Source: Thermanaeromonas toyohensis ToBE (lineage in GTDB: Bacteria; Bacillota; DSM-521; Neomoorellales; Neomoorellaceae). Taken from it: a stretch of DNA of 64,000 nt. Location: assembly GCF_900176005.1 (NCBI RefSeq), contig NZ_LT838272.1:701587-765586 (forward strand). The letters run 5' to 3'. Positions 30,574 through 51,758 of this stretch are shown here, piece by piece. Numbering within the stretch: position 1 is the stretch's first letter; the number at the start of each line of letters is the position of its first letter. The notes beneath the pieces were generated by a model. The model worked only from the letters and a program-made list of their open reading frames with translations, ran no database searches and was not told where the DNA came from. The translations under genes and the position numbers were made by a program.

Positions 30574-30585
30574 TTTCTCCGCCCC

Positions 30586-33720: not shown

Positions 33721-34120
33721 CTATCTCTTGGATTGGCCTGAAGAATTTTGGGAGCCAATATTACTTCCATCGATATTCCCTTCGCTCTTTTTTAAAACGT
33801 TCAAGCTATACCCTTTCTGCCACAAATAGAAAGAAGCCATTAGGATTAAAATTACGATAGCATTTACTCCCAATTCGCCGAAATAAATAAACGGGTCCAC
33901 ACATAGAGCATCTGCCGGATACTCAGGAAAACTTTTTTATTTCGATAAGTGACTGAAAGGAGATCCCTATTGCCGCTATAATGAGCAGGATCGCTGCTAA
34001 AATATGAATTATATGTTCTGCTAACATTAATAATCGAGTAATGACTGTGGCGGTATCCTTCCAGGGTGATCCCTTCAAGGGCAATCCTTCCCAGGGTTCA
34101 TTCGCCCTCATAGAAATCAA
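33721..34120 (-). pseudogene. Small membrane protein gene split by a frameshift
   Basis: This is the only content I see in the stretch between bioB and hypA. The first part (34120 to 33923, 65 aa) carries a hydrophobic helix LAEHIIHILAAILLIIAAIG and stops after IEIKKFS. In the next frame the sequence continues as FPEYPADALCVDPFIYFGEL, then a second hydrophobic segment VNAIVILILMASFYLW and a polar tail to a stop at 33721. Removing one base from the A6 run near 33935 restores a single frame of about 120 codons. The family is not certain; the two-helix layout recalls PsiE-like proteins. The 5' end overlaps hypA by 23 nt. Confidence 0.5.
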
Positions 34121-34439
34121 TATAAAGCTCTCTTCCTTGATCTATAGAAACCCTCCTCGACCCGCAGGAAGGGCACATAATACACCAATTATCCAGAACA
34201 ACTTCCGCCAGGCAATCCCGGCAATGTCCCCGCCCAGGCCTTTCCTCTATTTCCAATTGGGCCCCCTCAAACAACGGCCCTTTTTCAAGCGCGTAAAAAG
34301 AAAACTCCACGGCAGACGCTAAAACCGAGGTCATCGCCCCTATCACCAGCTTAACTTTCTTTATGCGCTTTATACCTTTCTCTTGGGCATCGTGTTCCAA
34401 TAGCTTTAATAACTCAGCCGTAAGGGACAGTTCATGCAT
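34098..34439 (-). CDS. hypA: Hydrogenase nickel-insertion protein HypA
   Basis: Delivers Ni to the large subunit of [NiFe] hydrogenase. Begins MHELSLT with the invariant Ni-binding Met-His-Glu. Zinc site made of CRDC and CPSC. 113 aa. Last hydrogenase gene of the module; hypB, hypC, hypD, hypE and hypF are not in the window, so must be elsewhere. Confidence 0.94.
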   Translation of the reverse strand: MHELSLTAELLKLLEHDAQEKGIKRIKKVKLVIGAMTSVLASAVEFSFYALEKGPLFEGAQLEIEERPGRGHCRDCLAEVVLDNWCIMCPSCGSRRVSIDQGRELYIDFYEGE

Positions 34440-34491: not shown

Positions 34492-35028
34492 CTAGAACCT
34501 CACGGCCAAGCGGCAGGCCTTGGCTCCGCGCAGCATGCAGGCCTCCTCGCGCCAGGATAACGGCCTACCGTTATACCGCAGCCCTATGCCCTCGATCAGA
34601 CCCTTTAGCAGCGGGCAGAGCTTCCTCTCGCTGCGGTAGACGACCACCAGCTCGCTGCCCCGGTCCTCGTACTCGAACCGTGGAGGTGCGGCGCCTGGTA
34701 GGGCTTTGGTGGCCTGGACGTGGACTGAGTCCATCTTCATTAGGAAATCTTTGGCATCCTTGGCATTCCTAAAATACGCCGCATAGGTCTTCTGCACTAA
34801 TGGTGATTCCGCCACGAAATAGCGGCCGAAATCGGCCAGCACCTCCTCCGGCTTCTTGCCGGAAAGCTCGGCCAGCGCCTCCACGGCCGCCGCCACTTTC
34901 TCGTCGGGATAGTCTGAAGTGGCGAGCGGCGTTGTCAGCCCGGTCGCCCTCCTAAAGGCTTCCCTTCCTTCGTCGCCGTGCCGGTTCCCGGCGTACTCCT
35001 GGAGCACGGAAAAGATAATACCTTTCAT
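34492..35028 (-). CDS. Stand-alone H-NOX heme gas-sensor protein
   Basis: 178 aa matching the heme NO/O2-binding domain over its whole length. It begins MKGIIF. The proximal heme ligand is His103 within FLMKMDSVHVQATK, followed by the conserved AAPPRF (Pro116). The heme-propionate motif Y-x-S-x-R is Tyr131-Ser133-Arg135. Position 140, the distal Tyr that stabilises O2 in the Thermoanaerobacter protein, is Leu here, which predicts NO/CO binding without stable O2 binding. It starts 1 nt after hycI and has no output domain. Three cysteines lie in the last 45 residues (138 and two in EEACMLRGAKACRL). Role inferred: gas sensor for the CODH-hydrogenase module. Confidence 0.88.
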   Translation of the reverse strand: MKGIIFSVLQEYAGNRHGDEGREAFRRATGLTTPLATSDYPDEKVAAAVEALAELSGKKPEEVLADFGRYFVAESPLVQKTYAAYFRNAKDAKDFLMKMDSVHVQATKALPGAAPPRFEYEDRGSELVVVYRSERKLCPLLKGLIEGIGLRYNGRPLSWREEACMLRGAKACRLAVRF

Positions 35029-35029
35029 T

Positions 35030-35569
35030 TTAGCTATCCTCCTTCCTGAAGTTCTTCAAAAATTTTTCTTGGGCCCACGCCCTGGCGGCCTTGTGCTTCG
35101 CCTCTACAGGGCGTTGTCCACCAAGGTAGGGAAAATCGAGCTTCCCGGCTTGTAACTTTTGATACACGATCTCTACTGCTTGCCTTACTTCAGGAGACAC
35201 TGGCCAACCAAAGGCAACTACCGCAGGCTGGATACCAATAAAATAGACTTCCGACACCAGTTCCTTCAAGGCTGAGATGAAGAATGACAAAGGTAACCGA
35301 TGCGTGGACAAAATAAACTCGCAGGCAATGTCACTTTCACAAAGGAGGCGTATGCTCCCGGGCTGCAGGTTCATCTCACAGGCGTCAACCAGTACTACCA
35401 CTTGCGGTTTTAACTCCCGTACCTGATGCAGGTAATTCTCGGGCGCTGACCCGCCATCAATAACCTGCCAGCCGGGTATACGCTTTTGTTCTAAAAGCCG
35501 GGCCAAGAGCGGCCCTGCTCCATCATCACCCATCAGCTCGTTGCCTACAGTAATCACTAGCCCCTTCAC
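35030..35569 (-). CDS. hycI: Hydrogenase maturation endopeptidase HycI
   Basis: Nickel-checking protease that removes the C-terminal extension of the hydrogenase large subunit. The N-terminal GNELMGDDGAGPLLARLL carries the metal-binding Asp and Glu of the HycI/HyaD family, with VVLVDACEM in the middle. 179 aa. Its natural substrate would be the neighbouring hyfG product, whose tail is HycE-like. Overlaps hycH by 44 nt. Confidence 0.92.
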   Translation of the reverse strand: MKGLVITVGNELMGDDGAGPLLARLLEQKRIPGWQVIDGGSAPENYLHQVRELKPQVVVLVDACEMNLQPGSIRLLCESDIACEFILSTHRLPLSFFISALKELVSEVYFIGIQPAVVAFGWPVSPEVRQAVEIVYQKLQAGKLDFPYLGGQRPVEAKHKAARAWAQEKFLKNFRKEDS

Positions 35570-35963
35570 TTAGCCTCACCACCAGATATATAGCTGGTTC
35601 TTTTTGTATGGATTGGAGAAGCTGTAGCAGGCAGTCGGCCCATTTCTTCTCCTCCGGGAGGAAACTGGGAGAAGCTTTTACCAGTGCCGATACTAATGGG
35701 GCAACGTGCTCTCTATTTATCTCTAGTTCTCCCCACTTGGACAGGCCTTCCAGCTTGCTCCTGGCTTTCCCCTGGGGCAGTTTACTAATCCATTTAAAAT
35801 AGTCCTTCTCTTCCATAACCATAACGGGCGACAAACAATCAACTACTCCTATATGGTGACCGAGGGCCAGGGCATAATACTCTAGCTGCTTAACCTCGGG
35901 CGGGGCGTCTTTTTCGTCCACAAACCTCTTGCACAGCTTAAAGAATTTTACCTTACCCGGCAT
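35526..35963 (-). CDS. hycH: Formate-hydrogenlyase maturation protein HycH
   Basis: Assembly factor of group 4a hydrogenases (145 aa). The segment EYYALALGHHIGVVDCL and the late AIYLVVRLSEG closely follow E. coli HycH. Its presence is a strong sign that the complex is formate-hydrogenlyase-like rather than a CooMKLXUH-type hydrogenase. Overlaps the small-subunit gene by 11 nt. Confidence 0.9.
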   Translation of the reverse strand: MPGKVKFFKLCKRFVDEKDAPPEVKQLEYYALALGHHIGVVDCLSPVMVMEEKDYFKWISKLPQGKARSKLEGLSKWGELEINREHVAPLVSALVKASPSFLPEEKKWADCLLQLLQSIQKEPAIYLVVRLSEGASDYCRQRADG

Positions 35964-36696
35964 TATGGCCTACCCTCTCCATATAAATCTTGTGCAAGCT
36001 CAAAAGAATTTCGGCCAGTCGCGGATCTTTCTCCTGCTTTACCAGCTCTTTAATTTTCCGGTCGACCGCCAGCGGGTCTTTTTCCCTCACGAACTTGAGA
36101 TATTGCGCGGCTATGCGCCGGCCATGCAGGTAGCCGCTCAAACGGCGGGCCTCCCGCTCGATGTCTTTAGCCAGGGCGGGGCAAACCCCTTCGTATTTCG
36201 GAGTAACCCGGGTAACTTCCGTTTCTACCAACTGCTCTCCTTTAATCTTTTGCTGGAGCAAATCCAGGGCCATAGCCAGGCCATATAAGGTCGCTGCCGG
36301 AGTGGGAGGACAGCCAGGAATATATACATCTACCGGGAAAAGGCTATCAGCCCCTCCCCACACACAGTAACAGTCGTGGAAGATACCGCCGCTACAGCCA
36401 CACGCGCCGTAAGCTACCACGATTTTGGGATCGGGTGCCGCTTTATACGCCCGTATAGCCGGAAGCCGCATAGCCCTGGTCATGGGTCCGGTGAAGAGAA
36501 GAATATCGGCATGCCGTGGGGAGGCTACCACTTTGATCCCGAACCTTTCCGGGTCATAAACAGGTGAGATAGCGGCGAAAATTTCAATCTCGCACCCGTT
36601 GCACCCACCACAGTCTACGCGGTACACATAGACGGAGCGTTTTATAACGTTTTTAAGCTTGGCCTTTAGCTCTGCCAGTTTTACTTCCTGGTCCAT
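35953..36696 (-). CDS. hyfI: Group 4 [NiFe] hydrogenase small subunit (HycG/HyfI, NuoB-like)
   Basis: Carries the proximal [4Fe-4S] cluster next to the NiFe site: CGGCNGCEIEIFA, YGACGCSGGIFHDCY and IPGCPPTPAATL supply the four cysteines. 247 aa with a charged C-terminal helix. Starts 3 nt after hyfH. Confidence 0.94.
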   Translation of the reverse strand: MDQEVKLAELKAKLKNVIKRSVYVYRVDCGGCNGCEIEIFAAISPVYDPERFGIKVVASPRHADILLFTGPMTRAMRLPAIRAYKAAPDPKIVVAYGACGCSGGIFHDCYCVWGGADSLFPVDVYIPGCPPTPAATLYGLAMALDLLQQKIKGEQLVETEVTRVTPKYEGVCPALAKDIEREARRLSGYLHGRRIAAQYLKFVREKDPLAVDRKIKELVKQEKDPRLAEILLSLHKIYMERVGHNAG

Positions 36697-36699
36697 ATT

Positions 36700-37254
36700 T
36701 TACTTGCTCCCTCCTAGAACCTTGCCCGCGCGCCCAAAGATTCTAGCTGTACTCTTCGCGATCTCCTGTCGCCGGCACTTCGGGCATACTTTAAGGAGTT
36801 GCTCCCAGCCTTCGTGGCCGCTTGCCAGCAATCTTGCCTGTTTCAGGATGGCCAGAACGTATTCCAGCTCGCGAGAGGGTCCAAAGTATTCCCCACAGGA
36901 GATGCACTTACAGAGCTGGACCTCAGCCCGGCAGTACAGATCCTCCTTTCGGGCAACGGCCAATTCAAACTCTGCCGAAAGGGCGATGGCGCCCGTAGGG
37001 CATACTTCCTCGCAGCGGCCGCAGAAAATGCAGCGGCCGTAGTTTATATTCCAGGACTTAATCCCCCGCTCTAAATCGCAGTCCATGGTAATGGCATTGG
37101 GCGGGCAAGCAGTAGCACAGGCCCCGCACGCTATACACCGGCTGAAATCATAAACCGGTTTCCCGCGGAAGCCAGGTGCCACTTCCACTGGCTTAAAGGG
37201 GTACTTAACTGTGGCTTGCCCGACCTGCAGCGCTTTCTTAAGCAGTCTTAGCAC
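36700..37254 (-). CDS. hyfH: Hydrogenase ferredoxin-like subunit (HycF/HyfH)
   Basis: Two [4Fe-4S] motifs, CIACGACATACPPNA and CIFCGRCEEVCPTGA, linking CooF to the small subunit. A C-terminal CKCISCG / CPKC arrangement looks like an additional zinc-ribbon or cluster site, also seen in HycF proteins. 184 aa. Confidence 0.9.
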   Translation of the reverse strand: MLRLLKKALQVGQATVKYPFKPVEVAPGFRGKPVYDFSRCIACGACATACPPNAITMDCDLERGIKSWNINYGRCIFCGRCEEVCPTGAIALSAEFELAVARKEDLYCRAEVQLCKCISCGEYFGPSRELEYVLAILKQARLLASGHEGWEQLLKVCPKCRRQEIAKSTARIFGRAGKVLGGSK

Positions 37255-37291: not shown

Positions 37292-39022
37292 TTAGACTTT
37301 TAGCGGCGAGTATTTCCTTTCCCGGCAGTATCTTTCCAGCTCCTTGTATCCAATAGTCTTCGCTTTCTTTTTACGCACATCGACCACCGTAACCCTTTCC
37401 GCGCAGGAGTAGCAGGGGTCGATGCTGGCTACAATCAGCGGCGCGTCAGACACCGTGTTGCCGCGAAACATATACCGCAGGGCTGGCCAGTTATTATAGG
37501 TAGAAGCCCGCGGCCTCCACCGGTACACCCTCTGGTCGTTTCCTGTCATTACCCAGTGGACATTTTCTCCCCGGGGGGCTTCCACATATCCCAGGGCGTA
37601 GGTTCCCGGTTTATAGGTAAACCCCTCCACGAGGACCGGGCCGGGAGGCATTTCCATCAAACACCACTCAATAATTTTTAAGGACTCATATAGCTCTTCT
37701 GCCCGTACCAGCTCCCTGGAAAGAACGTCACACCCCTCCTTGGAAATGACGTCCCAGGATACCCGGTCGTAGGCCCCATAAGGGTGGTCCGCCCGCGTAT
37801 CCCGGGCATATCCGGAACCCCGTATATTAGGACCCACCGGGCTATAGTCCCGGGCTACCTTGGGGTCCAGGCGGCCTACTCCTTGGGTTCGTGAGATAAA
37901 GTTGGGAGTATTGAGCAGCATATCGATGAGTTCACCCAGTTCAGACCGGATCTCAGAAATTAATCGCAAGACCCGGTCCTTCTCCTCTTTTAAAATATCC
38001 CGGCGCACTCCTCCAATAAGGTTCATGCCGTAGGTTTTCCGGCCTCCGGTGAGAATCTCGGCCATTTGCATAGCCTTCTCCCGCACCCGGAAGAAATGCA
38101 TGAAACCCGAATCAAAACCCACCAGGTGGGCCGCCAGCCCTAGATTTAAGAGGTGGCTGTGCACCCTCTCCACCTCGAGCAGGATGGTACGGATATATTG
38201 GGCCCGCGGCGGTACCTCAATCCCGTTGGCCGTTTCCACCGCCGCAGCATACGCCACACTATGGGCGTAACCGCAGATGCCACAGATCCGCTCGGCCAGG
38301 AAAGTAACCTGGTCGTAGTCCATGCGGTTTTCAGCCAGTTTCTCCAGGCCCCGGTGCACGTAGAAAAGGCGGTAGTCAGCGTCCACTATATACTCGCCGT
38401 CGACAAAGAGCCGGAAGTGCCCCGGCTCGTCGGAAGTAATATGCAGTGGACCTAGGGGTACCTCGACAATACCCTCTCCTTCTACTTCGATAAACTCGTA
38501 GTTTTCTTCCTCTGCTACCGGGTCAGGGCGTAACCGGTAATCCATATCCTTCCGCAGGGGATACAGGTTATCCGGCCAGTCATCGGGCAATACTAGTCTG
38601 CGCGCATCCGGGAGGCCCACCGGCTCCAGCCCCAGCATATCCCGCACCTCCCGTTCGTACCATACCGCCGCCGGTACCCGCGGGGTTACCGAGGGGAATT
38701 CGGGTTTATGGGAAGGAACGAGGGCCTTCACCGTCAGCCAGAAGTTTTTATGGGGATCCCTTTCTTCTTCGATGGATAAAACGTAATATACCGCAAAGTG
38801 TCCGTTCAAGCTGCGCTCATCATTTCCGATCACATTAGAGAGCCACCCACTCTGCCCATAATATACCTCTTCCACAACTTCTGGGAGGGAGTTAAGTTCC
38901 ACCGTCAGGGTTACTTGATCCGGCGTTTGCCAGCTCTCTTCCAGGATAACCGCTCCAAACTTAGAGCGCAGGGCCTTCACGTATTTTTTTCTATCCTGTT
39001 CGGATTTCGTTTCCTTGGGCAT
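37292..39022 (-). CDS. hyfG: Group 4a [NiFe] hydrogenase large subunit (HycE/HyfG)
   Basis: Catalytic subunit that reduces protons to H2. The N-terminal ~170 residues form a NuoC-like domain and the rest is NuoD-like. The NiFe ligands are complete: RICGICGYAH (L1) and DPCYSCAER (L2). After the L2 motif a 33-residue tail VTVVDVRKKKAKTIGYKELE and onwards closely resembles the extension that HycI removes from E. coli HycE, predicting cleavage between Arg and Val. 576 aa. This tail supports group 4a assignment. Confidence 0.95.
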   Translation of the reverse strand: MPKETKSEQDRKKYVKALRSKFGAVILEESWQTPDQVTLTVELNSLPEVVEEVYYGQSGWLSNVIGNDERSLNGHFAVYYVLSIEEERDPHKNFWLTVKALVPSHKPEFPSVTPRVPAAVWYEREVRDMLGLEPVGLPDARRLVLPDDWPDNLYPLRKDMDYRLRPDPVAEEENYEFIEVEGEGIVEVPLGPLHITSDEPGHFRLFVDGEYIVDADYRLFYVHRGLEKLAENRMDYDQVTFLAERICGICGYAHSVAYAAAVETANGIEVPPRAQYIRTILLEVERVHSHLLNLGLAAHLVGFDSGFMHFFRVREKAMQMAEILTGGRKTYGMNLIGGVRRDILKEEKDRVLRLISEIRSELGELIDMLLNTPNFISRTQGVGRLDPKVARDYSPVGPNIRGSGYARDTRADHPYGAYDRVSWDVISKEGCDVLSRELVRAEELYESLKIIEWCLMEMPPGPVLVEGFTYKPGTYALGYVEAPRGENVHWVMTGNDQRVYRWRPRASTYNNWPALRYMFRGNTVSDAPLIVASIDPCYSCAERVTVVDVRKKKAKTIGYKELERYCRERKYSPLKV

Positions 39023-39045: not shown

Positions 39046-40485
39046 CTAGCTTAACAAGAGCAAAGCAAGGTACTGGGAAATCAGCGTCATGATCATAAGA
39101 AGGACGAGCACAAATTTGATGGCCCAGGGCGGTTCAGCGGCACTGGCCACTACCTCCGAGGGTGTGCCCAAGACGTTGGCTCCCATCCACTTTAGGAACC
39201 AGATGAAACTTCCCACAGACTCCATAATCGTAACGATAATTAGGACAAGGATCAGCGGATAGTGCTTACCAATTTCGAAACCGCCAGTTACGATCATAAA
39301 TTTGCTAAAAAAACCATTAAAAGGGGGAACGCCTGTAATGGCCATGGCAGCCGCAATATAACCCAAACCCGCCACCGGAATTTTATTTAGAATCCCCTTG
39401 AGCATCGAGAGCTGGCGGGTACCGGTGGTATAGGACAGCGCACCGGCAACCAAGAAGAACAGGCCCTTAGCAAAAGCGTGGTTAAAGATGTGGGCCACCG
39501 CACCATTTAAGGCCATCTTGGAACCGTAGATATAAAGGGAGAGGGCCAGGAAAATGTAAGAGAGTTGGGTGATCGTAGAGTAGGCGAGCAGTCGCTTCAT
39601 ATCATCTTGCGGGAAATACATGATAAAGCCGTATATCATGGTAACTGTTGCCATGATGGCCCCGATCAGGCCGATAACCTGGGGAACCGCCCCCGCTGCC
39701 AGGACGGTGCGGGCGAAGATGTAGACCCCTACCTTAACCATCGAAGCGGCATGCAAATAGGCGCTTACCGGGGTCGGCGCCACCATCGCCCGGGGCAGCC
39801 AAGGATGAAAAGGAAGCTGAGCGGACTTGCCCCAGCAGGCGATCAGGATTCCGATAAAGGCCAGGGTTTTCCCGGCGTCCGTTAATTTGTTAAGGGCGGT
39901 CACCGAGAAGCTCCCGGTCTTTACATAAAGATAGGCCGTAGCCACATAGAGTCCCAGCGCGGCGGAGTGGGTGAGTGCAATCGCCCAGAGCGCGGACCTT
40001 CGGGATTTTTGATCCCCGTAAAATCCGATCAAACCCCACGAGCAGAGACCGGTCATTTCAAAGAAGAACAGGAGTCCGAGCAGTGTGGAAGAGAAGACCA
40101 CACCCGCCATAGAGCCGATAAAAAGCAGCATGAGGGCATAAAACCTGGGAATCCCTTCTTTAATTGGATGCTCTCTGTTATCAGGGCTCATATACCCGGC
40201 CGAGTAGGTGCAGATCAGCCAGCCGATAAAAACTACTAAGAAGTTAACCAAAACGCTGAGGGTATCTATAGTTACACCATAATAGGTGATATCGCCTATA
40301 GTCACTAGTTCCCGGGTAAAACTTGTGCGGTTGACAGCAAAAGCGAGCAGCAGAAGCAAACCGCTGACAAAAGCCAGGAAGGAGAAAAACTGAGCCACCT
40401 TTTTTACGTGTCGCTCCGGTAAAAATGGTACAAGGAGACTTCCCCATACGGGTAGCAAGATGCTTCCTAGCGCATACCAAACCAT
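39046..40485 (-). CDS. hyfD: Antiporter-like membrane subunit (HyfD/NuoN-like)
   Basis: Proton or sodium translocating membrane subunit of the Mrp/Nuo antiporter family. About 14 hydrophobic segments and the family motif KSAQLPFHPWLPRAMVAPTP with conserved Lys and Pro. ATG start at 40485 follows GGAGGGG and sits 1 nt after the hyfF stop; a further upstream start at 40509 would overlap hyfF. 479 aa. Confidence 0.9.
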   Translation of the reverse strand: MVWYALGSILLPVWGSLLVPFLPERHVKKVAQFFSFLAFVSGLLLLLAFAVNRTSFTRELVTIGDITYYGVTIDTLSVLVNFLVVFIGWLICTYSAGYMSPDNREHPIKEGIPRFYALMLLFIGSMAGVVFSSTLLGLLFFFEMTGLCSWGLIGFYGDQKSRRSALWAIALTHSAALGLYVATAYLYVKTGSFSVTALNKLTDAGKTLAFIGILIACWGKSAQLPFHPWLPRAMVAPTPVSAYLHAASMVKVGVYIFARTVLAAGAVPQVIGLIGAIMATVTMIYGFIMYFPQDDMKRLLAYSTITQLSYIFLALSLYIYGSKMALNGAVAHIFNHAFAKGLFFLVAGALSYTTGTRQLSMLKGILNKIPVAGLGYIAAAMAITGVPPFNGFFSKFMIVTGGFEIGKHYPLILVLIIVTIMESVGSFIWFLKWMGANVLGTPSEVVASAAEPPWAIKFVLVLLMIMTLISQYLALLLLS

Positions 40486-40486
40486 T

Positions 40487-41977
40487 CTATATCGCCCCTC
40501 CCAGGACAACGCTCACTGCGCTCTGTAGCAATCCATTTAACGGAGCAGGTAAATATATCCCCAGCCCGGCCATGAGCAGAAACAGGAGCCCCAGAGGCAA
40601 CAAGGTCAGCCAGTTTACATCACCCCGGGGTAGATCTTCCGGAGGGGAACCGAGGACCGTCTCGCTTATCAGGATAAAAAAGGCGACAAAGACGATGACC
40701 AGCAAGATAAGGAAGAGTATCATCGGCCAGAAATACCCGGCTTGCAGGCCCGCCGTCAGGGTCATAAACTCGCTTATGAAGACGTTAAAAGACGGTGAAC
40801 CGACCACAGCCAGAAGCCCGGTCGCCAACATAAAGGCAGTAGCGGGGGCTACCTTGAACATACCGCTAATCTTCTGGGAGTCCCTGGTACCATACTTGAG
40901 AGTCACATTGCCCACCGTGCAAAACAGAAGGGATTTAGTGATGCTATGGTTTACGGCGTGAAAGAGCGCGGCAAATATTCCCAGCGGACCTCCTACGCCC
41001 AGGCCGGTGGCGATGATGCCTACATGTTCAACACTACTGTAAGCCAGCTTCCTTTGGATATCGTTCTGCACCAGGATGAAAAAAGCCGAGACACCCACAG
41101 ACAAAAGGCCAAAAATGAGGAGCAGGGTCTGCGGGAACTCCTGGCCGACGGCCTGCAAGGCAATGGTATAATATTTTACTATCGCAAATAGCGCGCACTT
41201 CATCAGTACACCCGACAGCAGGGCGCTAACCGGGCTTGGGGATTCGCTGTAAGTATCAGGCAACCACGTATGCATAGGGGCTAGGCCCACCTTGGTCCCG
41301 AAGCCGATCAAAATGAATACAAAAGCCAGTTTCATCACCTGCGGGTCGAGACCCCGGGCCATCCTTACTAACTCAGTCCATAGCATCGCCCGGTGGGCAT
41401 CCTGCACCATGGCAAAGGCGTTGGAGTAGGTCAGGATGGTCCCATACAGGGCAAAGGCCAGACCGACGCTGCAGATCAGGACATACTTCCAGGCAGCTTC
41501 CGCCGAAGTCTTATATTTATAGAACCCGACCAGGAAGGCTGAACCTAACGTGGTTGCCTCCACTGCCACCCACATAATGGCAATATTGTTGGATAGGGCA
41601 GAAATAACCATGGTGAACAAAAGTATATGGTAAAAACCGTAATAGGAGCAGACGCCCCTCTCATCTACTTCACCATGATCTAGGTCATATCGCATATATA
41701 CTATAGAGTAAAAGCCGTTCAGAAACCCCACTACCCCGATAATAAGAATAAGGACCGCTGTCAGGCTATCGGCGTAGAGCATTTCTTCAAGGGCGAATAA
41801 CCTTTGTCCGTTAAGTACGTACTGCACCAGCAGCAAGGAGAGAAAAGCCACGATACTGATCCCGGCAAAGTGTACGACCTCTACCACACGCCGGGACCTT
41901 ATCCCGAAGGCCAACAGGGCTGTTCCCAGCGGTACCGCAGGCAAGTAGAATAAAATATTCTCTCCCACTTCTATCAC
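40487..41977 (-). CDS. hyfF: Antiporter-like membrane subunit (HyfF-like)
   Basis: Second antiporter-type subunit. Family motif GFGTKVGLAPMHTWLPDTYS and a conserved ion-channel Lys region (QNDIQRKLAYSSVEHVG). 496 aa, many transmembrane helices. It starts directly at the end of hyfE without a gap. Confidence 0.92.
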   Translation of the reverse strand: MIEVGENILFYLPAVPLGTALLAFGIRSRRVVEVVHFAGISIVAFLSLLLVQYVLNGQRLFALEEMLYADSLTAVLILIIGVVGFLNGFYSIVYMRYDLDHGEVDERGVCSYYGFYHILLFTMVISALSNNIAIMWVAVEATTLGSAFLVGFYKYKTSAEAAWKYVLICSVGLAFALYGTILTYSNAFAMVQDAHRAMLWTELVRMARGLDPQVMKLAFVFILIGFGTKVGLAPMHTWLPDTYSESPSPVSALLSGVLMKCALFAIVKYYTIALQAVGQEFPQTLLLIFGLLSVGVSAFFILVQNDIQRKLAYSSVEHVGIIATGLGVGGPLGIFAALFHAVNHSITKSLLFCTVGNVTLKYGTRDSQKISGMFKVAPATAFMLATGLLAVVGSPSFNVFISEFMTLTAGLQAGYFWPMILFLILLVIVFVAFFILISETVLGSPPEDLPRGDVNWLTLLPLGLLFLLMAGLGIYLPAPLNGLLQSAVSVVLGGAI

Positions 41978-42625
41978 CTAACCCTTTAGTAGTGTGAGCT
42001 TATCGGTGTCCAGGGTGCCGAAATCTTTGAAAAGCCGCCTGGCAATAATTGTCATGATCACCACGGCAAAAATAGCGTCAGTCAGGATACCGATCTCTAC
42101 GGTTTCGGGGGCGTTGTAGGCCATGATGGCCAGGGTCAAATGCGACCCGTTCTCCATAAGGCAATAGCCCAATATCTGCTTGAGCGCATTTTTTCTAGCA
42201 AGTATACAGAGCAAGCCCAGTAGAAAATGAGCTATAGAAACGGCCAAGGCCACCCTCAACTTCAGTACCGCTTGCATATGAAAAGGTTCTACTACCGCGA
42301 AGGATAAAGCCACCAGGCCCACGGCAAGAAAAACAGACGAACTTGTCTCCGGTGCCCGCCCCTCCTCCTTAATCCCTACCTTTTTGAGGGTCCTGATGAG
42401 GAGATAGGGCACCAGGAAGGTCTTGGTGAAAAGCGCACTAAGGGACCAAATATACAGCGGTTTTGCCTCCATAAATACGGCCAGGGATAGAAAAATCGCC
42501 ACCAGGACCAGGGACTGGATGCTGTACATGTACGCCGCCGTCCGGAGCTTCCGGGTTTCCACCACCAGCATGGAGGTCAGGATGAGCAGCACAGCCAGGG
42601 CGTTGACTACGCTAGTGCCGGACAC
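41978..42625 (-). CDS. hyfE: Hydrogenase membrane subunit HyfE (NuoK/MrpC-like)
   Basis: Membrane subunit related to NuoK, with an extended N-terminus. About six hydrophobic segments; GLLCILARKNALKQILGYCL and MENGSHL are typical. The GTG at 42625 has GGAGGGG nine bases upstream and gives 215 aa, close to E. coli HyfE; a start at 42643 would erase the ribosome-binding site. Confidence 0.88.
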   Translation of the reverse strand: MSGTSVVNALAVLLILTSMLVVETRKLRTAAYMYSIQSLVLVAIFLSLAVFMEAKPLYIWSLSALFTKTFLVPYLLIRTLKKVGIKEEGRAPETSSSVFLAVGLVALSFAVVEPFHMQAVLKLRVALAVSIAHFLLGLLCILARKNALKQILGYCLMENGSHLTLAIMAYNAPETVEIGILTDAIFAVVIMTIIARRLFKDFGTLDTDKLTLLKG

Positions 42626-42648
42626 TATTCTTACCCCTCCCACATCAA

Positions 42649-43590
42649 TTAAACATTGGCCAGGTAGAAAACGAAGGACAGCAGGGCTATTCCGAAGGCC
42701 ACCCAGGTTACTGCGGGGGTCTTAAAAAGGAGCAATCTGGCCATGCCGTTTTCCAGCAGCGCCGCGATCACGTAAAAGCCGGCCACCTTCAGAAGGAAAG
42801 TAGCCCCGGATACCAGAAGGGAGGAAGTGCTAACCACCGCCGCGCTCCCAAAGGGGAAGAAGACGGCCAAAAATAAGGCGATGGCCACAACCTGCTTCAT
42901 ATACAAACCCCACTTGAGGATGGCCAGGGAGCGCCCGGAATATTCCGTAAGAGGTCCCTCCTGAATCTCCTGTTCGGCTTCCGCCAGGTCAAAAGGGAGC
43001 TTACCGGTTTCAATAAAGGTGGTAACAGCAAAGGCCGCCATACCCAGCCAGACTGCCGGGCTATAATAGGATATCTCACCGGCCGCCACCTTCTGGCTGA
43101 TCGTTCCCAGATCGGTCGACCCGGCGAGAAGGGCCACCACGAACAGCACCAGGATAATAGTAGGCTCCACTAGAACGGCCAGGGCCATCTCCCGGCTGGC
43201 CCCTATCCCGGCGAATCCGCTCCCGGAATCCAGCCCGGCGAGGGCAAAGAAGAAACGGACCACCGCGAACAGGTAGACGACAGCGATGAGATCCCCCGCC
43301 ATCCCCAGGGGTGACTGCAGGATTAAAATCGGGATTATCATAGCCATGAGCAGGGTAGTGGCCATCACTATATAAGGGGTAAACCGGAAGACCCAGCTAG
43401 CCTGGGCAGGTACCACCTCTTGCCTCTTTATGAGTTTAAAGATGTCCCGGTAGTTCTGTAAAATACCGGGGCCTTTCCTGGAGTGCAGCTTCGCCCTTAA
43501 AGTGCGGGAAAAGCCCGTAAAAAGAGGCGCTACTACCAGGACGAACAAGGCCTGCACCAGGCCGATGAGGAGTAAATTATTACCGGCCAT
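42649..43590 (-). CDS. hyfC: Hydrogenase membrane anchor subunit (HycD/HyfC, NuoH-like)
   Basis: Links the soluble hydrogenase arm to the ion pumps. LHSRKGPGILQNYRDIFKLI near residue 35-55 and the charged loop ETGKLPFDLAEAEQEIQEGP are the NuoH-family signatures. 313 aa, about eight helices. Confidence 0.94.
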   Translation of the reverse strand: MAGNNLLLIGLVQALFVLVVAPLFTGFSRTLRAKLHSRKGPGILQNYRDIFKLIKRQEVVPAQASWVFRFTPYIVMATTLLMAMIIPILILQSPLGMAGDLIAVVYLFAVVRFFFALAGLDSGSGFAGIGASREMALAVLVEPTIILVLFVVALLAGSTDLGTISQKVAAGEISYYSPAVWLGMAAFAVTTFIETGKLPFDLAEAEQEIQEGPLTEYSGRSLAILKWGLYMKQVVAIALFLAVFFPFGSAAVVSTSSLLVSGATFLLKVAGFYVIAALLENGMARLLLFKTPAVTWVAFGIALLSFVFYLANV

Positions 43591-43602
43591 CTTTTTCTCC
43601 TC

Positions 43603-45624
43603 CTATCTGACCGTGGCTATCAGCAAAGCTACGAGCGTTACAATGATATAAACGCAGTATAGCCGGACATTGCCCATCTGGAGGGCTTGCACCCGTTTGC
43701 CCAGATGGACCGTACCACGGGCCAGGGGACGGTAGATGTAATCTTCCCACATCGACTCCATGCGGGCGACGTAGGCCATTGCTCCCTTGCCATACGAGGC
43801 AATGGCATAACCCGGCCCCTCGAGAGTAGTCCTAAGCCAATAGGCAGAGCGGAAAAGCACGCGCAACGGCTGGGCAAAGGCAGAAGAGGCGTACACCATC
43901 CGGGGCGAATACTTATACCCGCATGCCCACGGCTCAGAGTCCACACGCCGCCCGGCCTGCATCCCGCCTTGAAGCGCAACAATTAACAGGGGTAACGTCA
44001 CCAGCCCTACGAGGAGAAGGGCAATAAGGGGTGGGGAAAGCATGGCCCATGCGCTGCTGGCCGGAAATACCAGCAAGCCGTTACTTACCCGTACTGGGGA
44101 AGTGCCCAGCAACGCTGAGGCTACCTTACCCATATAAGGAGCAACAACCGGTGCGCCCAGCCCGAGGATAATACAGCCAGCCGCCAGAATCGCCATCCCG
44201 GCAAGCATCGGCACCGGCACTTCTCTGGCCTCCTGGGCGCGAACGCTGCGCGAAGGACCGGCAAAGGTAACTCCATAGGCTTTTACAAAGCACATCGCCG
44301 CTAACGCCCCTGTCAGGGCCAATATGACCGCAAAAAGGGGTGCCAACACTTTGACCGCCAGGATGCCGCCGGTGCTCGCCATAAATAGCGATTGGTAGAT
44401 AAACCATTCACTGACAAAGCCGTTGAGAGGAGGGATAGCTGAGATGCCTAAAGCACCGGCCAGAAAAGTGAATCCCGTCCACGGCATTTGCCTGGCTAAC
44501 CCGCCCATCTCCTCCATGTTTTTCGTGTGGAGGCGATAGATTACTGAACCTGCCCCGAGGAACAGAAGGCCTTTGAAAACGGCATGGTTTATAAGGTGAT
44601 AGAGCCCCGCCAGGATGCCGAGCACTCCTAGAACGGGCTGCCCGCTGGCAACGCCCATCATGCCCACACCGGCACCCATCAGGATGATTCCCACGTTCTC
44701 GATACTGGAATAGGCCAGCAAACGCTTGAGATCATTTTCACTTATAGCGTAAAGGACACCCAGGACAGCCGAAATTGCCCCGCAGGCCAGAACCGTAAGC
44801 CCCCACCACCAGACGGAAGAGCCCAGGAAATCCACACCAACCCTGAGGATGCCGTAGATAGCGGTTTTAATCATCACACCCGACAGGAGGGCGGAAACGT
44901 TGGAAGGAGCCGCAGGGTGAGCCCGTGGTAACCAGATGTGGAGGGGAATAATACCGGCCTTGGCCCCGAATCCGAAGAAGGCCAGTAGGAAGGCCAAATT
45001 CTTGGTCACCGGCGAAAGGTTCGCGCTACGGAAGGAGGCGAAATCAAAGCTACCCGTGTAAAGAAAGAATGTAAAAAACGAAAGCATAATCATGGCTGTC
45101 CCAGCGTGGGCCACCAGGAAATAGAGAAAACCCGCATCGACAGCCTCTTTGTTTTCTTGTTCAAAACTAACCAAGAAATAAGAAGCCAGGGTCATTAGCT
45201 CCCAAAAAATAAGAAAATAGAAGGCGTTGCCGCTGGTAACTACCAGGACCATGGACGTAATGAAAATATTGTTCAAAAAACCCAGTACTCCAGCGCCCCT
45301 CCCGATATACTCTTCCTGGTAAGAAAGGGAGTAAATAGCTGTAGCGGCCGCCAGCAGCGAAATGACCAGCACCATAAAGGCAGAAAAGATATCGACCTGG
45401 AAAATCAAGCGCGCAAAAGGTATAACCCCCACCGCTTCCATGGTGAAGCCCGTTCCACGAGCGAAGACCGGGATGGCCGAAGCCATCCCGGCGATTGCTG
45501 CCGCAAAGGCGCTTATTCCTGAAGCATAGTTGGCAATTTTACCGGCTCTATTCAGCGCCAGGGAGGCAACTGCTCCGGCAATATACAGGAGAACGGAGAG
45601 CAGAAATAGCTGCTGAACGATCAT
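43603..45624 (-). CDS. hyfB: Large antiporter-like membrane subunit (HyfB/HycC, NuoL-like)
   Basis: 673 aa, about 16 hydrophobic segments. Antiporter motifs GFGAKAGIIPLHIWLPRAHP and SENDLKRLLAYSSIENVG. The C-terminal ~200 residues contain a long amphipathic region and the family's conserved ACGYKYSPRMVYASSAFAQP. First of three pump-like subunits here, suggesting more than one ion translocated per H2. First hyf gene after cooF, separated by 128 nt that hold a hairpin. Confidence 0.93.
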   Translation of the reverse strand: MIVQQLFLLSVLLYIAGAVASLALNRAGKIANYASGISAFAAAIAGMASAIPVFARGTGFTMEAVGVIPFARLIFQVDIFSAFMVLVISLLAAATAIYSLSYQEEYIGRGAGVLGFLNNIFITSMVLVVTSGNAFYFLIFWELMTLASYFLVSFEQENKEAVDAGFLYFLVAHAGTAMIMLSFFTFFLYTGSFDFASFRSANLSPVTKNLAFLLAFFGFGAKAGIIPLHIWLPRAHPAAPSNVSALLSGVMIKTAIYGILRVGVDFLGSSVWWWGLTVLACGAISAVLGVLYAISENDLKRLLAYSSIENVGIILMGAGVGMMGVASGQPVLGVLGILAGLYHLINHAVFKGLLFLGAGSVIYRLHTKNMEEMGGLARQMPWTGFTFLAGALGISAIPPLNGFVSEWFIYQSLFMASTGGILAVKVLAPLFAVILALTGALAAMCFVKAYGVTFAGPSRSVRAQEAREVPVPMLAGMAILAAGCIILGLGAPVVAPYMGKVASALLGTSPVRVSNGLLVFPASSAWAMLSPPLIALLLVGLVTLPLLIVALQGGMQAGRRVDSEPWACGYKYSPRMVYASSAFAQPLRVLFRSAYWLRTTLEGPGYAIASYGKGAMAYVARMESMWEDYIYRPLARGTVHLGKRVQALQMGNVRLYCVYIIVTLVALLIATVR

Positions 45625-45752: not shown

Positions 45753-46238
45753 CTATTTCAGTGAAGCGATGGCCGCCAAGCGCCGTTCGGCCTCAAACTC
45801 CTCCACAGTCTTAAAGACCAGGGCCCCAGTGGGGCAGGCTCGAACGCAGGCCGGCACACCCTCCTCATCCAGGCACTCTCGATCGCACTTTATGGCCTTG
45901 CCCTCGCCCCGGCCCACCGCACCGAAGGGGCAGGCCATGGCACACATCCAGCAACCGATGCACTGGGGTAAGTCAACCACGTTAACGCCATCCTCCCGGC
46001 TGTGCATCGCGCCCGTCATACAGACAGCCACACAAGGGGCATCTTCACATTGCCGGCAGACGGCCGGAGCTTTCACCTGACCTACCTGGTCCACGTAGAT
46101 GCGCTTCTGCGGCTTTTCGCCCCCCAGGAGAGCTCCAAACAAGTCTCGGGCTGCGGTGTGGCTTATGGCGCAGGCCAGCTCACAGGAATGGCAGCCCATA
46201 CACCGTTCATAACGGACGAAGATCTCCTTCCGTATCAT
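45753..46238 (-). CDS. cooF: CooF, iron-sulfur electron carrier of the CO dehydrogenase
   Basis: Transfers electrons from CooS to the hydrogenase arm. Four [4Fe-4S] cysteine groups: CMGCHSCELAC, CRQCEDAPCVAVC, CIGCWMCAMACP and CDREC with CVRACPTGA. 161 aa. Its ATG overlaps the cooS stop (ATGA), so the two are translationally coupled. Related to, but clearly diverged from, the CooF-like gene at 30067-30573. Confidence 0.93.
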   Translation of the reverse strand: MIRKEIFVRYERCMGCHSCELACAISHTAARDLFGALLGGEKPQKRIYVDQVGQVKAPAVCRQCEDAPCVAVCMTGAMHSREDGVNVVDLPQCIGCWMCAMACPFGAVGRGEGKAIKCDRECLDEEGVPACVRACPTGALVFKTVEEFEAERRLAAIASLK

Positions 46239-48163
46239 CGCCGCCCACCTCCCGGAACGCTGAGCCCCAGAGCAGCCCGGCGCTCATCGATGGCCGCCAG
46301 GAGCTTTTTGGCTGCGGACTCGGGATCAGGATCCACGATGAAGTAACCACCGGTCAAGTCCTTGACTTTCTCCGTCAGCACCTTGGTAACCAGAGGGCCG
46401 CCCACAACAGGCAACATGACTCCCACGTGGGTGGGCAAGCCTATAGCCACAGCGTAAGTGCCGATGGAGATAGCCTTCTCCGAAACCGCCTCGGCCGCCG
46501 AGGCCACCACCGGGAGCTGATCCGTGTCTACGCCCAGCCGGTCGGCCACTGCCACGGCCACGGCCACCGCCCGCGAGTTGTCTACGCAGGAGCCCACGTG
46601 CAGCACCGCCGGCAGAGGCCCACCCAAACCGTTGGCCTCACCGATGGCTGTCAGGACCGCCTTCAAGCCCTCTCCGCACAGCTCGCCCACGTTGGCCGGA
46701 TCCATGAACCCGTGGCGCATGAGCGCACCTGCTCCGCAGCCGGTAGCCAGGACCAGCACGTTTTCTTTCAGGAGCCTGCGAGCTATTGCGGTAAAGTTCT
46801 TGTCCTGCGGGACCTTGACGTTGTTGCACCCGGCGAAGAGGCAGACACCCCGAATATTGCCGGCGACAATCTGGTCGATCAGTGGCTTCAATGGGTCCTC
46901 AGCGTTCAGCTTGGCCAGAGCGTTTATGATTGCCTCCACGGAGAAGCCCGCCACCACTTTGGTTTTAATTTGTGGTATATCCACCGGCTTACCCCGGCGA
47001 CGGGAGAAGGATTCGATGGCCAGGCGGATGATCTGTCTGGCGTTCTCCCCGGCCGTCTCCTCTGAAAAGTCGATGTGGATGGCACCGGGGATCTTGGTGA
47101 TCTCCATGGTAGTGATGAGCTTAGTGCCCATGCATTCCGCCACCGTAGCCAGGGAGGGCATGATGCACTGGTAATCCACCACCACGGCATCCAGCGCACC
47201 GGTTACCAGGGCCATCTCCTGGCTCACCGAATGGGTACAGGCCGGAATGCCATGCCGCATCATCACCTCATTGCCCGTACAGCAGATGCCTACCACATTT
47301 ACGCCAGAGGCGCCGGCCGCCTTGGCCTCGGACTCCATCTCCTTGGCCACTGCCACGATCACATCCGAAAGGACCGGGTTGTGGCCGTGCACCGCCACGT
47401 TGACAGCATCGGCCTTCAGCACACCCATATTGGCCTCGGTCACCACTGGCTGGGGAGTACCGAAGAGGATGTCGGACAGGTCGGTGCCCATATAGCAGCC
47501 GGCCAGGTCTGCCAAGCCGCAGCGCAACCCGCCCAGAAGCAGGTTCACGGGGTCCGCGTCTGTGCCGTAGAGGGTGCGGTGCATGATATCGGCCACCTCG
47601 TAGTCTATGCCCTTGGGGAGCAAACCTTTTTCCGCAAAGAGTTTGGCCCGCTTCTTAGTCACCGTGGTGGCTACCCACATTACCGGCGTGTCTTTCTCGT
47701 GGAAATCAGCCAGGGCCGCCTCCGCCACGTCCAAAGCGATCTCGGCGATACTCCTTCCCTCGGTGGGGATGCCGAGGCGCGCAGCCACAGAGCGCAGCTT
47801 GGCTTTGTCCTTAACAGTATAGTCACGTGCCTTGCCCTTGGCCGCCAGCTTCAGGGTGTGGGCCAGGTGTCTGGCATGGCCGGAGTGGGCCGCCGACCCG
47901 GCCGCGATGGCCCGGTCGAGGCCCCGGGCTACCATCACATCCGCGGTGGCCCCGCAGATGCCGGTCTTGGGCTCGCCGCCGAAAGGATCAATGCGGCAGG
48001 GGCCCTGCAGGCAGTGCCGGCAGCACAGGCCGGTTTCACCAAAACCGCACTGGGGGAGCATAGCCTGGTAGCGGTCCCAGACCGTCTCCACCTTCACGCG
48101 CCTGGCCTTTTCTACCATCTCGCAAACAGCCGGATCCAAAGAAACCTTACACGGGTTAGCCAT
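46235..48163 (-). CDS. cooS: Anaerobic nickel CO dehydrogenase catalytic subunit
   Basis: Homodimeric CODH interconverting CO and CO2. Clusters D and B: CGFGETGLCCRHCLQGPCR and the Cys of GICGA. Cluster C ligands: His in HGHNPV, then Cys in GICCTGNE, DYQCIMPS, FAGCNN, ATGCGAG and HVGSCVDNSR, all present. I choose ATG 48163 (MANPCKVSLDP), nine bases after AAGGAGG; ATG 48169 is also possible. 642 aa. The gene is much richer in G+C at third positions than the core genes around 1-30 kb, which fits lateral acquisition. The neighbouring antisense frames are shadows of this bias. Confidence 0.97.
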   Translation of the reverse strand: MANPCKVSLDPAVCEMVEKARRVKVETVWDRYQAMLPQCGFGETGLCCRHCLQGPCRIDPFGGEPKTGICGATADVMVARGLDRAIAAGSAAHSGHARHLAHTLKLAAKGKARDYTVKDKAKLRSVAARLGIPTEGRSIAEIALDVAEAALADFHEKDTPVMWVATTVTKKRAKLFAEKGLLPKGIDYEVADIMHRTLYGTDADPVNLLLGGLRCGLADLAGCYMGTDLSDILFGTPQPVVTEANMGVLKADAVNVAVHGHNPVLSDVIVAVAKEMESEAKAAGASGVNVVGICCTGNEVMMRHGIPACTHSVSQEMALVTGALDAVVVDYQCIMPSLATVAECMGTKLITTMEITKIPGAIHIDFSEETAGENARQIIRLAIESFSRRRGKPVDIPQIKTKVVAGFSVEAIINALAKLNAEDPLKPLIDQIVAGNIRGVCLFAGCNNVKVPQDKNFTAIARRLLKENVLVLATGCGAGALMRHGFMDPANVGELCGEGLKAVLTAIGEANGLGGPLPAVLHVGSCVDNSRAVAVAVAVADRLGVDTDQLPVVASAAEAVSEKAISIGTYAVAIGLPTHVGVMLPVVGGPLVTKVLTEKVKDLTGGYFIVDPDPESAAKKLLAAIDERRAALGLSVPGGGRR

Positions 48164-48188
48164 CAACATCAACCTCCTTGAAGAATAT

Positions 48189-48763: not shown

Positions 48764-49510
48764 TTAGCTTAGCAACCTAGTAGCCAGTTCGGCGATACCT
48801 GCTGCCGTAAAAGACTGCTCATCGATAAAACCGGCAGCCTGGTCTAAAATTTCCGTTTGGAAAGGAATCAGGCCAATAACATCACCTGGGGGCAGGTGGC
48901 TAAGGATAAATTCTTCATCCCTGGGGTGACGCAATTTATTGCCCACAAATTTTATTCGTGCAATACCAAGTTCTGCGGCCAGTTTTTGGACGACCCGGGC
49001 AGTTTGGATACTCACCAGGGTGGGTTCGGTAACAATAAGCATAAGATCTACCCCCCGGGCCGTACCTCGGGTAAGGTGTTCAATGCCCGCACCCATATCT
49101 AAAACTACCATTTCCCGGCGTTTCAAGACGAGGGAATTAACCATAGCATTTAAGACGGCATTTTCCCGGCAATAGCAGGTAGACCCCCCCGGTTTGATGG
49201 CTCCCATTTTCAAAAAAAGGATATTACCCTTTCTGATGGTGTAATCCTCCAGCAGGCTATCTACTTCCGGGTTTAAAGAAAAGAAAGCACCGTTACCGCC
49301 GGTGCGTTCAACAATCAACTCTCGCATATCAACAATAGGTTTCAGGGTACCAAGTCTTTCCTCAGGAAGCCCCAGGACCATTCCCAGGCTGGTATCGGGG
49401 TCGGCATCGACGGCATATACCTGGTAACCCCGCTGGGCAAAGCACCTGATTAAACCTGCGGCGATGGTTGTTTTGCCGACGCCACCCTTCCCGGAAATAG
49501 CCAGCTTCAC
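48764..49510 (-). CDS. cooC: CooC, nickel-insertion ATPase for CO dehydrogenase
   Basis: MinD-type ATPase that loads Ni into the C-cluster of CooS. Begins VKLAISGKGGVGKTT (deviant Walker A) and has the metal-binding CxC motif in STCYCRENAVLN, typical of CooC dimers. I choose GTG 49510, seven bases after GAGGAGG. The longer frame back to 49576 would begin inside the sigma-54 promoter and cannot be translated from that transcript. 248 aa. It lies 590 bp upstream of cooS. Confidence 0.92.
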   Translation of the reverse strand: MKLAISGKGGVGKTTIAAGLIRCFAQRGYQVYAVDADPDTSLGMVLGLPEERLGTLKPIVDMRELIVERTGGNGAFFSLNPEVDSLLEDYTIRKGNILFLKMGAIKPGGSTCYCRENAVLNAMVNSLVLKRREMVVLDMGAGIEHLTRGTARGVDLMLIVTEPTLVSIQTARVVQKLAAELGIARIKFVGNKLRHPRDEEFILSHLPPGDVIGLIPFQTEILDQAAGFIDEQSFTAAGIAELATRLLS

Positions 49511-49559
49511 TGGCACGCCTCCTCTGTTCAACTTCTCCTGGTTATCGTTTATTTTCATT

Positions 49560-49576
49560 AGCAAAAAGCGTGCCAA
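49560..49576 (-). promoter_or_regulatory. Sigma-54 (-24/-12) promoter of cooC
   Basis: Minus-strand TTGGCACGCTTTTTGCT with GG and GC 10 nt apart, identical to the promoter before the FAD oxidoreductase gene. It is directly downstream of the gene for a GAFTGA-type activator. Expected transcription start is about 10-12 nt further, leaving a ~40-nt leader before the cooC GTG. Confidence 0.88.
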
Positions 49577-49654: not shown

Positions 49655-51490
49655 TTATTTTTTAAGCAGGCCATAGCGGGCCATTTTAGCATAAAGGGCC
49701 TGGCGGGAGAGGCCTAAGGCCTTGGCGGCCCGTGTTTTTTCTCCTCCAAAAGCTTCTAGGGCCTGGATGATGGCCTCCTTTTCCGCTTCTATCCGTACTT
49801 TATAAAGGGGGGAGATCTCCCTTACCCCTTTCTTTTTTCCCGTATAACCTATGGCGAGGTGATGGGGATGGATTTCCTGGTCTTCAGCCAAGATGACAGC
49901 CCTCTCTAGAACATTTTCCAATTCCCGTACGTTGCCCGGCCAAGAATAGCTTAAAAGGCACTCCCTAGCCGCGGGGGTAAGCCGTAATTCTTTCCCGTAT
50001 TCTTCGTTTAGCCTTTGCAAGATACTCTCTGCCAGGAGAGGTATATCTTCCGGCCGCTCTCTAAGGGGTGGGAGCACTAGCTTAACCACATTTAAGCGGT
50101 AAAAGAGATCTTCCCGGAAACGCCCTTCCTGCACCATTTTTTCTAAGTCCCTGTTGGTAGCGGCTATCACCCGCACATCTATTTTTCTGGTCTGGGTGCT
50201 ACCCAGCCGTTCAATCTCTTTATCTTGCAATACCCTTAAAAGTTTGGCTTGCATATTAAGGGGCATATCCCCAATTTCGTCCAAAAAGATGGTCCCGCCG
50301 TCAGCTAATTCAAGCTTGCCAGGTTTGCCTCCCTTTTTAGCTCCGGTAAAGGCGCCTTCCTCATAACCGAAGAGTTCGGATTCTAAAAGTTCCGGGGGGA
50401 TGGCTGCGCAGTTTACCTTTATAAAAGGCGCATTACGGCGGGGGCTTTCCTCATGGATAGCCTGGGCGAGGAGCCCTTTTCCGGTACCGCTTTCACCCAG
50501 GATGAGTATAGTGGCATTGCTCCAGGCCGCTTTCTGGGCAAGGGTTAAAACGTTTCTAAACTGGTGATTTAAAGTCTGGATGTGGTGGAAATGGAAGACT
50601 AAGGGCCAACCGGGTTTTAAGTTTTCAGGGTTATGGCTAACTTTGGCTTCTTGTTTTTTAAGCTGTTCCAGGAGAAGGCGTACGAGCTCGCTTTCAGCGG
50701 AGAAAAGCTGGCACAGCACACCCTCTATTTTGGCTTGGACCCCAAGGGGCGTTCCTATGGCGATAATAGTGTTTCCCTTTGTTTTCTGGAATTCCCATAC
50801 CTGGGGTTTACCTGACTTAAGTATTTCGGAGTACCTGGCTAATGGCAATATCTCTTCTAGCAGGCGGCCTTGCACCCTTTGGCCTGCGATACCTAACATT
50901 TGGGTGCCGGCCTTATTTATCTTTACCACTCTCCCCTGGTTATCGGCAATTACCAGGCCTAGGGGTATCATATGAAAGATGGCTTCCCCGATACTTAAAG
51001 GTAGCCCTTCCATCTCTTTGGCAGACCCCCAGGTGGCCTGGCGGTAGTTTCTAGTTGCCTGCACAGCTTGGAAGGTAAGATCTATGAGCAATTTGTTGTT
51101 TTCTTCGGGGAGAAAGAAGGGATAGGGCTCATCAAGGCCAGAAACAGGGGATATGGTGGCTTCCATCTGGCAATACCTTTCACCTGTCCCCCAGCATTTG
51201 GTTTCTTCTACCTCTACTTTTTTCTTAAGGAATTTGTTGAGGGCTCCGGCTAATAGGCCCGCTTCCAGATAGCATAGAGGCTGGCCTACGGGTGGCAAGT
51301 GAGAACAGGTTAAACATTCATACCATTTGATAGTTATTTTGTCGTCTTTTACACTTTGCAGCTTAAGGTCTCCTATTCCTAATGCGCTTATTTTAGCCGG
51401 TATTTCTTCCAGGCCGTTTACCGGAAGCTGGCTGCCGATAGAATAGCCTGCCTGGTAGTAAACTGTATTCTCTGGGGTACTGGCCAGCAT
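49655..51490 (-). CDS. Sigma-54-dependent activator with V4R and PAS sensor domains
   Basis: Enhancer-binding protein. Domains in order: an N-terminal V4R/XylR-type ligand domain with several cysteines ([32 protein letters not shown]); a PAS domain ([20 protein letters not shown]); a AAA+ domain with GESGTGKG, the sigma-54-contacting GAFTGA and [13 protein letters not shown]; and a Fis-type helix-turn-helix at the C-terminus ([19 protein letters not shown]). ATG 51490 follows GGGGGAG; an upstream in-frame start at 51625 would add an atypical hydrophobic leader. 611 aa. Its position immediately before a sigma-54 promoter and cooC makes it the likely CO-module regulator; the ligand is unknown. 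Confidence 0.9.
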
Positions 51491-51758
51491 ACCTTTTCTC
51501 CCCCGGCGGCCATTTTTGCTTCTGCCTGATTCCATTCTAGAGCGTAAGATGTAAAAAGTAAAGTAAAGAAAATAAAGTAAAGAAAAAAGCCTTGACTTCG
51601 CCCACAGGATTTTAACCTTGCTCATTTCATCTCTTCGGGCAAATGGGAAGGCAAGATGAGCCCGCGGTCAGCGGCTAGTATTACTGCATAATGCATAGCG
51701 TTTTCTAGCTTGCGGAACCAGAGCTATAAAAGTGGGGATGGCGCCAGGCCTAAAACAT

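Follow-up and report, generated by a model that had tools for sequence, protein, structure and literature searches.

A gene for a stand-alone H-NOX protein, hnox, lies inside the operon through whose enzymes Thermanaeromonas toyohensis, a heat-loving bacterium, probably turns CO into H2. This operon encodes a carbon monoxide dehydrogenase (CODH) and an energy-converting hydrogenase, and hnox stands between its maturation genes hycI and hypA. The H-NOX family, to which the mammalian NO receptor domain belongs, is known, but its occurrence in a CODH-hydrogenase operon appears to be new. The reading preferred here, held tentatively, is that the protein is an acquired heme gas sensor, probably loaded with CO, which modulates the CO pathway in trans and perhaps acts on the activator of the operon.

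The gene occupies positions 34492..35028 on the minus strand of the window (the whole stretch of DNA analyzed, 64,000 nucleotides in length) and encodes a protein of 178 amino acids. A sequence-only reading had placed an H-NOX open reading frame at these coordinates without giving a strand. Both the frame and its coordinates are confirmed; the plus strand across the same interval is riddled with stops. The ATG lies 1 nt past the stop codon of hycI and follows a good ribosome-binding site, GGAGG (35038..35042, minus strand); hypA comes next, and hnox is the penultimate gene of the operon. The close spacing to hycI had been pointed out in that reading, as had the absence of a kinase or cyclase gene next to hnox, and both hold, the neighbors being hycI and hypA.

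The protein has the H-NOX fold and belongs to the H-NOX (HNOB) family, as shown by a profile search and structural modeling, both of which had been suggested as checks. The HNOB profile of Pfam matches it with 103.9 bits (E = 1.1e-29), against a curated cut-off of 25.5 bits. The AlphaFold2 model has a mean pLDDT of 91.5 and a pTM of 0.87, and its top PDB matches are all H-NOX structures (Caldanaerobacter, Nostoc and Shewanella; Z ~22, rmsd 1.9-2.2 over ~174 residues). No DNA-binding domain was found in the Pfam search and no model matched in NCBIfam; V4R scored 27.3 bits against the C-terminus, under its cut-off of 31. Comparison of the gene in the window with those of three relatives gave dN/dS values of 0.14-0.20, similar to those of the flanking genes. 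These values show purifying selection, in three genera, and hence that hnox is neither a chance open frame nor a decaying gene.

The sequence-only reading had also named the residues expected to hold the heme. The proximal His103, Pro116 and the three residues of the YxSxR heme-propionate motif (Tyr131, Ser133 and Arg135) all occur in the protein, and an alignment of 26 sequences shows each to be invariant or almost so; the protein is predicted to bind ferrous heme. Supply of heme is likely rather than proven, as an AhbC/AhbD-like radical-SAM pair is common to eight of eight genomes but scores below the AhbD cut-off. The distal hydrogen-bond triad of O2-binding H-NOX proteins of the Tt/Cs type (Trp9/Asn74/Tyr140), which in its published form includes the O2-stabilizing tyrosine (PMC7356049), is replaced by Leu9/Phe71/Leu140. 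The claim that leucine stands where O2-binding proteins have tyrosine is thus borne out, Leu140 being aligned to Tyr140 of the Caldanaerobacter (Tt/Cs) protein.

The operon is transcribed from the minus strand and begins with the gene for a V4R-PAS-AAA+-Fis sigma-54 activator (49655..51625; Pfam V4R, PAS_8, Sigma54_activat and HTH_8). This is followed by cooC, for the CODH nickel-insertion ATPase (48764..49576 with the listed TTG start; Pfam CbiA), cooS, for the Ni-CODH (46235..48172; TIGR01702 at 741.8 bits, cut-off 478), and cooF, for an Fe-S electron-transfer protein (45753..46238; Pfam Fer4_11). The membrane arm comprises five genes (39046..45624): hyfB (43603-45624; NF005086 over cut-off) and, assigned from open frames, order and synteny, hyfC (42649-43590), hyfE (41978-42643) and two antiporter-like genes, hyfF/mrp-like (40487-41977) and hyfF-like (39046-40509). 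The hydrogenase large subunit gene hycE (37292..39022; Pfam Complex1_30kDa/49kDa and NiFeSe_Hases) comes next, with hycF for a 2x[4Fe-4S] protein (36700..37254; Pfam Fer4), the small subunit gene hycG (35953..36696; Pfam Oxidored_q6), hycH for a maturation protein (35526..35963; Pfam HycH) and hycI for the maturation protease (35030..35569; TIGR00142 over cut-off). The operon closes with hnox and with hypA, for a nickel chaperone (34098..34439; Pfam HypA and TIGR00100). Family matches and the order of the genes place cooS and cooF in one cluster with an energy-converting hydrogenase, and such a CODH-Ech cluster is described for Moorella and Thermanaeromonas in excerpts of PMC6687684 and PMC11328732; the excerpt of the latter has an activator there annotated as norR. 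Elsewhere in the window, an oxidoreductase of the NAD(P)H type is encoded at 30067-31872 (minus strand) together with a CooF-like Fe-S protein, and locus L018 of genome G018 has similar genes. None of the anti-phage defense models used found a match.

A perfect sigma-54 (-24/-12) promoter, TTGGCACGCTTTTTGCT, lies at 49560..49576 on the minus strand, directly after the activator gene and upstream of cooC, with 13 of 13 consensus positions. The TTG start given by the ORF caller for cooC falls inside this conserved promoter, and the true start therefore lies downstream. The same score of 13/13 is reached in all six CODH-type operons compared, among which the promoter flanks also align, with a conserved block upstream, and all six carry the V4R-PAS-sigma-54 activator. 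The best sigma-54 site in a formate-type operon (genome G007) scores 11. With a conserved promoter ahead of the operon and an activator adjoining it, sigma-54 most likely controls hnox along with the other genes of the operon. The activator is also a candidate partner of the H-NOX protein. The fold of the V4R sensor domain is related to that of H-NOX, and a weak Foldseek match of the H-NOX model was to PoxR, a phenol sensor, in the V4R-type domain of this transcription activator. That the two proteins touch is a guess drawn from this modeled likeness.

The survey of CODH-linked H-NOX genes covered one order, in 22 genomes. HNOB was found in five of them (G000, G006, G011, G016 and G018), always beside hycI of a CODH-Hyc operon. 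Four of the five have an intact operon in which hnox stands between hycI and hypA. The fifth, G018, has a fragmented contig on which hnox likewise comes after hycI; a cooS with 93% identity is on a separate contig. Locus L018 of this genome also has a second, partial H-NOX at a contig end, where the pieces are oddly ordered, perhaps through an assembly fault. No other copy of hnox was found in the HNOB genomes except this contig-end fragment. Within the family, H-NOX is present in 4/6 genomes with a CODH-Hyc operon and in 0/12 without one (Fisher test ~0.005, calculated by hand, the species not being independent). The sequence-only reading would have been refuted by a lack of association in relatives, and this test it therefore survives. 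One of the HNOB genomes, G016, is Moorella stamsii DSM 26217, a species that converts CO to H2 and CO2 (PMC5940957).

Several operons do without the gene. Genomes G008 and G009 have CODH operons with the activator and the perfect promoter but no H-NOX, and in G007 the hydrogenase operon is of a formate-dehydrogenase type that has neither hnox nor the V4R activator nor the perfect sigma-54 promoter. The CODH operon of G009 (L054) lacks cooC, as is reported in an excerpt of PMC11328732 for M. caeni DSM 21394, a species that produces H2 from CO, and G009 is therefore probably M. caeni. If so, it grows on CO and makes H2 without H-NOX, which suggests that H-NOX is dispensable for the CO response. 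Sampling the phylum more widely showed HNOB in 39 of 398 genomes, mostly in open frames of ~600 amino acids, the size of chemoreceptor fusions. The scan of genome contigs gave M. stamsii and a Bdellovibrionales MAG as the sole relatives, all plasmid relatives were under 60% identity, and viral contigs had none.

The junctions around hnox record how it came into the operon. Its GC content is 0.61, whereas hypA has 0.48 and hycI 0.52. The cassette is flanked in M. stamsii and G011 by copies of the hycI 3' end, 54-56 nt long, 88-91% identical and spaced 1030 nt apart, and a 35-42-nt piece of hycH is likewise duplicated. The duplicated hycI 3' ends on both sides show that hnox arrived as an insertion; the operons without hnox have a single hycI-hypA junction, presumably the ancestral state. 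G011, G016 and G018 (loci L017, L019 and, in G018, L018) have a degenerate open frame of ~75-100 codons between hycI and hnox, with no Pfam match and no other copy in the eight genomes searched. A likeness of this frame to a sigma-factor helix-turn-helix was a hunch and is not claimed. In the window, the stretch is mostly gone and the hycI frame reads into the remainder, so that, compared with L017 and L019, the C-terminal tail of hycI (~residues 150-179) derives from sequence of the inserted cassette. Furthermore, the hydrogenase core of M. stamsii is 98% identical to that of the H-NOX-less G009, while its hnox and hypA are 98-99% identical to those of G011, so the hnox-hypA module has moved between operons by recombination. 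The cooS genes of the window, G006 and G011 group apart from those of G016, G008 and G009 (79-81% nucleotide identity). The hydrogenase genes of G011, unlike its cooS, go with Moorella, and some operons thus appear to have had their CODH gene exchanged for another.

In a tree of 28 sequences, the Moorellales H-NOX proteins group with relatives from Bdellovibrionales, Vibrio and Bradyrhizobium (support 0.91), and the Firmicute H-NOX fusions fall apart from them. The nearest relative found outside the order, at 36%, is from a Bdellovibrionales MAG, where the gene overlaps one for a GAF-HisKA kinase; the plasmid relatives from Vibrio and Bradyrhizobium precede genes for an ATP-binding protein and a GGDEF protein. 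By this placement, the kin of the Moorellales proteins are proteobacterial zinc-site H-NOX proteins partnered with kinases or GGDEF proteins, not Firmicute chemoreceptors. Cys138, Cys164 and Cys172 are invariant across five orthologs and align with the three cysteines of zinc-site H-NOX proteins. The fourth ligand, His or Gln in those proteins, is Glu161 in all five, and the alignment thus gives a putative zinc site, Cys138/Glu161/Cys164/Cys172 (within hnox, 34492..35028, minus strand), whose binding of zinc is uncertain. Of the features of the zinc-site class, the three C-terminal cysteines are present, and the His or Gln ligand and the adjacent kinase or cyclase are lacking. In another stand-alone H-NOX (L008, genome G055) the heme motif is changed, with Cys131 and Trp135 for Tyr131 and Arg135.

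Under the preferred reading, the protein would have been acquired from among the zinc-site H-NOX proteins that have kinases or GGDEF proteins as partners, its gene having been inserted between hycI and hypA of the sigma-54-controlled CODH-Ech operon. It would bind ferrous heme, and CO would be the most likely occupant, since the protein is probably made together with a CO-oxidizing complex in cells that are exposed to CO and strictly anoxic. It would act in trans through protein contact, most likely with the V4R-PAS-sigma-54 activator of its own operon, reporting CO (or NO, or an oxidant) and adjusting that activator or another partner. Such a protein would be a modulator of the pathway rather than a master switch. 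It is not the primary or sole CO switch, since the operons without hnox keep the same promoter and activator. Of what was first proposed from the sequence, the stand-alone form, the absence of O2-stabilizing residues and the recurring link to the operon stand; as G008 and G009 show, however, the operon can do without hnox. The reading is kept tentative because published biochemical work on this class of H-NOX indicates NO. Proteins with this type of sequence are known to sense NO, and binding of CO does not as a rule break the Fe-His bond in them. Also against the reading stand the absence of a partner gene next to hnox and the two CODH operons that do without H-NOX. The stronger proposal, a dedicated CO-sensing H-NOX that would be the first with CO as its physiological ligand and would contact a V4R-type sigma-54 activator in bacteria lacking CooA and RcoM, is less likely than not.

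NO itself could be the ligand. NO arising from nitrate or nitrite would poison Ni-CODH and [NiFe]-hydrogenase, and NO-bound H-NOX would then lower expression of the operon or signal to an unlinked kinase. This would suit the nearest relatives, which are H-NOX proteins of the NO type with kinase or GGDEF partners, and the general order of heme affinity, NO > CO > O2 (PMC7356049); moreover, Moorella thermoacetica is able to reduce both nitrate and nitrite, and in Parageobacillus hydrogenogenic CO oxidation is suppressed by nitrate (PMC12165953). However, hnox tracks CODH operons and not nitrogen metabolism: NrfA occurs in one of the eight genomes checked and does not follow H-NOX. The formate-type operon contains a hydrogenase of this type but no H-NOX, and no ortholog of the H-NOX-linked kinase HnoK confined to H-NOX-positive genomes was found, the matches spanning the kinase core only. 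An NO sensor is considered unlikely. Kinship with the proteobacterial zinc-site proteins means that a thiol or redox role has also to be considered, in which the C-terminal site would respond to oxidants and warn of O2 damage to the metalloenzymes, with the heme secondary. Oxidation of the zinc site activates the Caulobacter and Vibrio H-NOX proteins (PMC12329717), and the three cysteines of the site are invariant here; yet Glu161 leaves zinc binding in doubt and the heme-pocket residues are just as fully conserved, and this role is quite improbable.

Other explanations would take hnox out of CO signaling altogether. The insertion scar, the higher GC content, the absence from some operons and the degenerate remnant adjoining hnox in three genomes would all be expected of a passenger, brought into the operon by accident and carried along while serving a function elsewhere in the cell. 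A passenger is nevertheless rather improbable, as the gene is under purifying selection in three genera, has no intact copy elsewhere in these genomes, was kept while the adjoining remnant decayed, and has moved between operons together with hypA. Very little probability is given to a non-signaling role, such as a local buffer for CO or heme or an aid to hydrogenase maturation. The NiFe site of the hydrogenase itself requires CO as a ligand, and the conserved place between two maturation genes, with no kinases or cyclases nearby, would agree with such a role, but insertion at the hycI 3' end explains the position, and the same hydrogenase genes occur without H-NOX in two sister operons and in the formate operon.

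In the open-licence literature, no paper was found that joins H-NOX with carbon monoxide dehydrogenase, although an earlier mention elsewhere is possible; H-NOX and Moorella come together there in a single paper, on an O2-sensing stressosome, with one mention of each. The hnox gene provides a concrete heme-protein candidate tied to a CO operon in a group with no known gas sensor for CO metabolism, and CO growers with and without the gene offer a natural comparison. If CO is indeed the ligand, it would be added to the signals known for H-NOX proteins and could matter for strains that turn syngas into hydrogen.

Compared to the CODH-Ech (ech1) clusters described before, the operon has the same gene order and the same RocR/NorR-like activator upstream, and excerpts of these descriptions make no mention of an H-NOX gene (PMC6687684, PMC7306483, PMC11328732). 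Compared to the zinc-site H-NOX proteins of Shewanella, Vibrio and Caulobacter (the hnoX-hnoK type), the protein in the window shares the fold, the proximal His, the YxSxR motif, the lack of a distal Tyr and the three C-terminal Cys, but has no adjoining kinase or cyclase, has Glu in place of His or Gln as the fourth zinc ligand, and belongs to a CODH-hydrogenase operon in an anaerobic thermophile. The H-NOX-chemoreceptor fusions of Caldanaerobacter (Tt/Cs) and other Firmicutes are alike in fold (Z ~22) and heme-contact residues; they are chemoreceptor-type proteins of ~600 amino acids that keep Trp9/Asn74/Tyr140, whereas the protein in the window stands alone and has the Cys site but not the triad. 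Finally, CooA and RcoM, the CO-sensing heme transcription factors, are likewise heme proteins linked to CO-oxidation genes, and H-NOX would sense CO as they do, while belonging to an unrelated family and having no DNA-binding domain.
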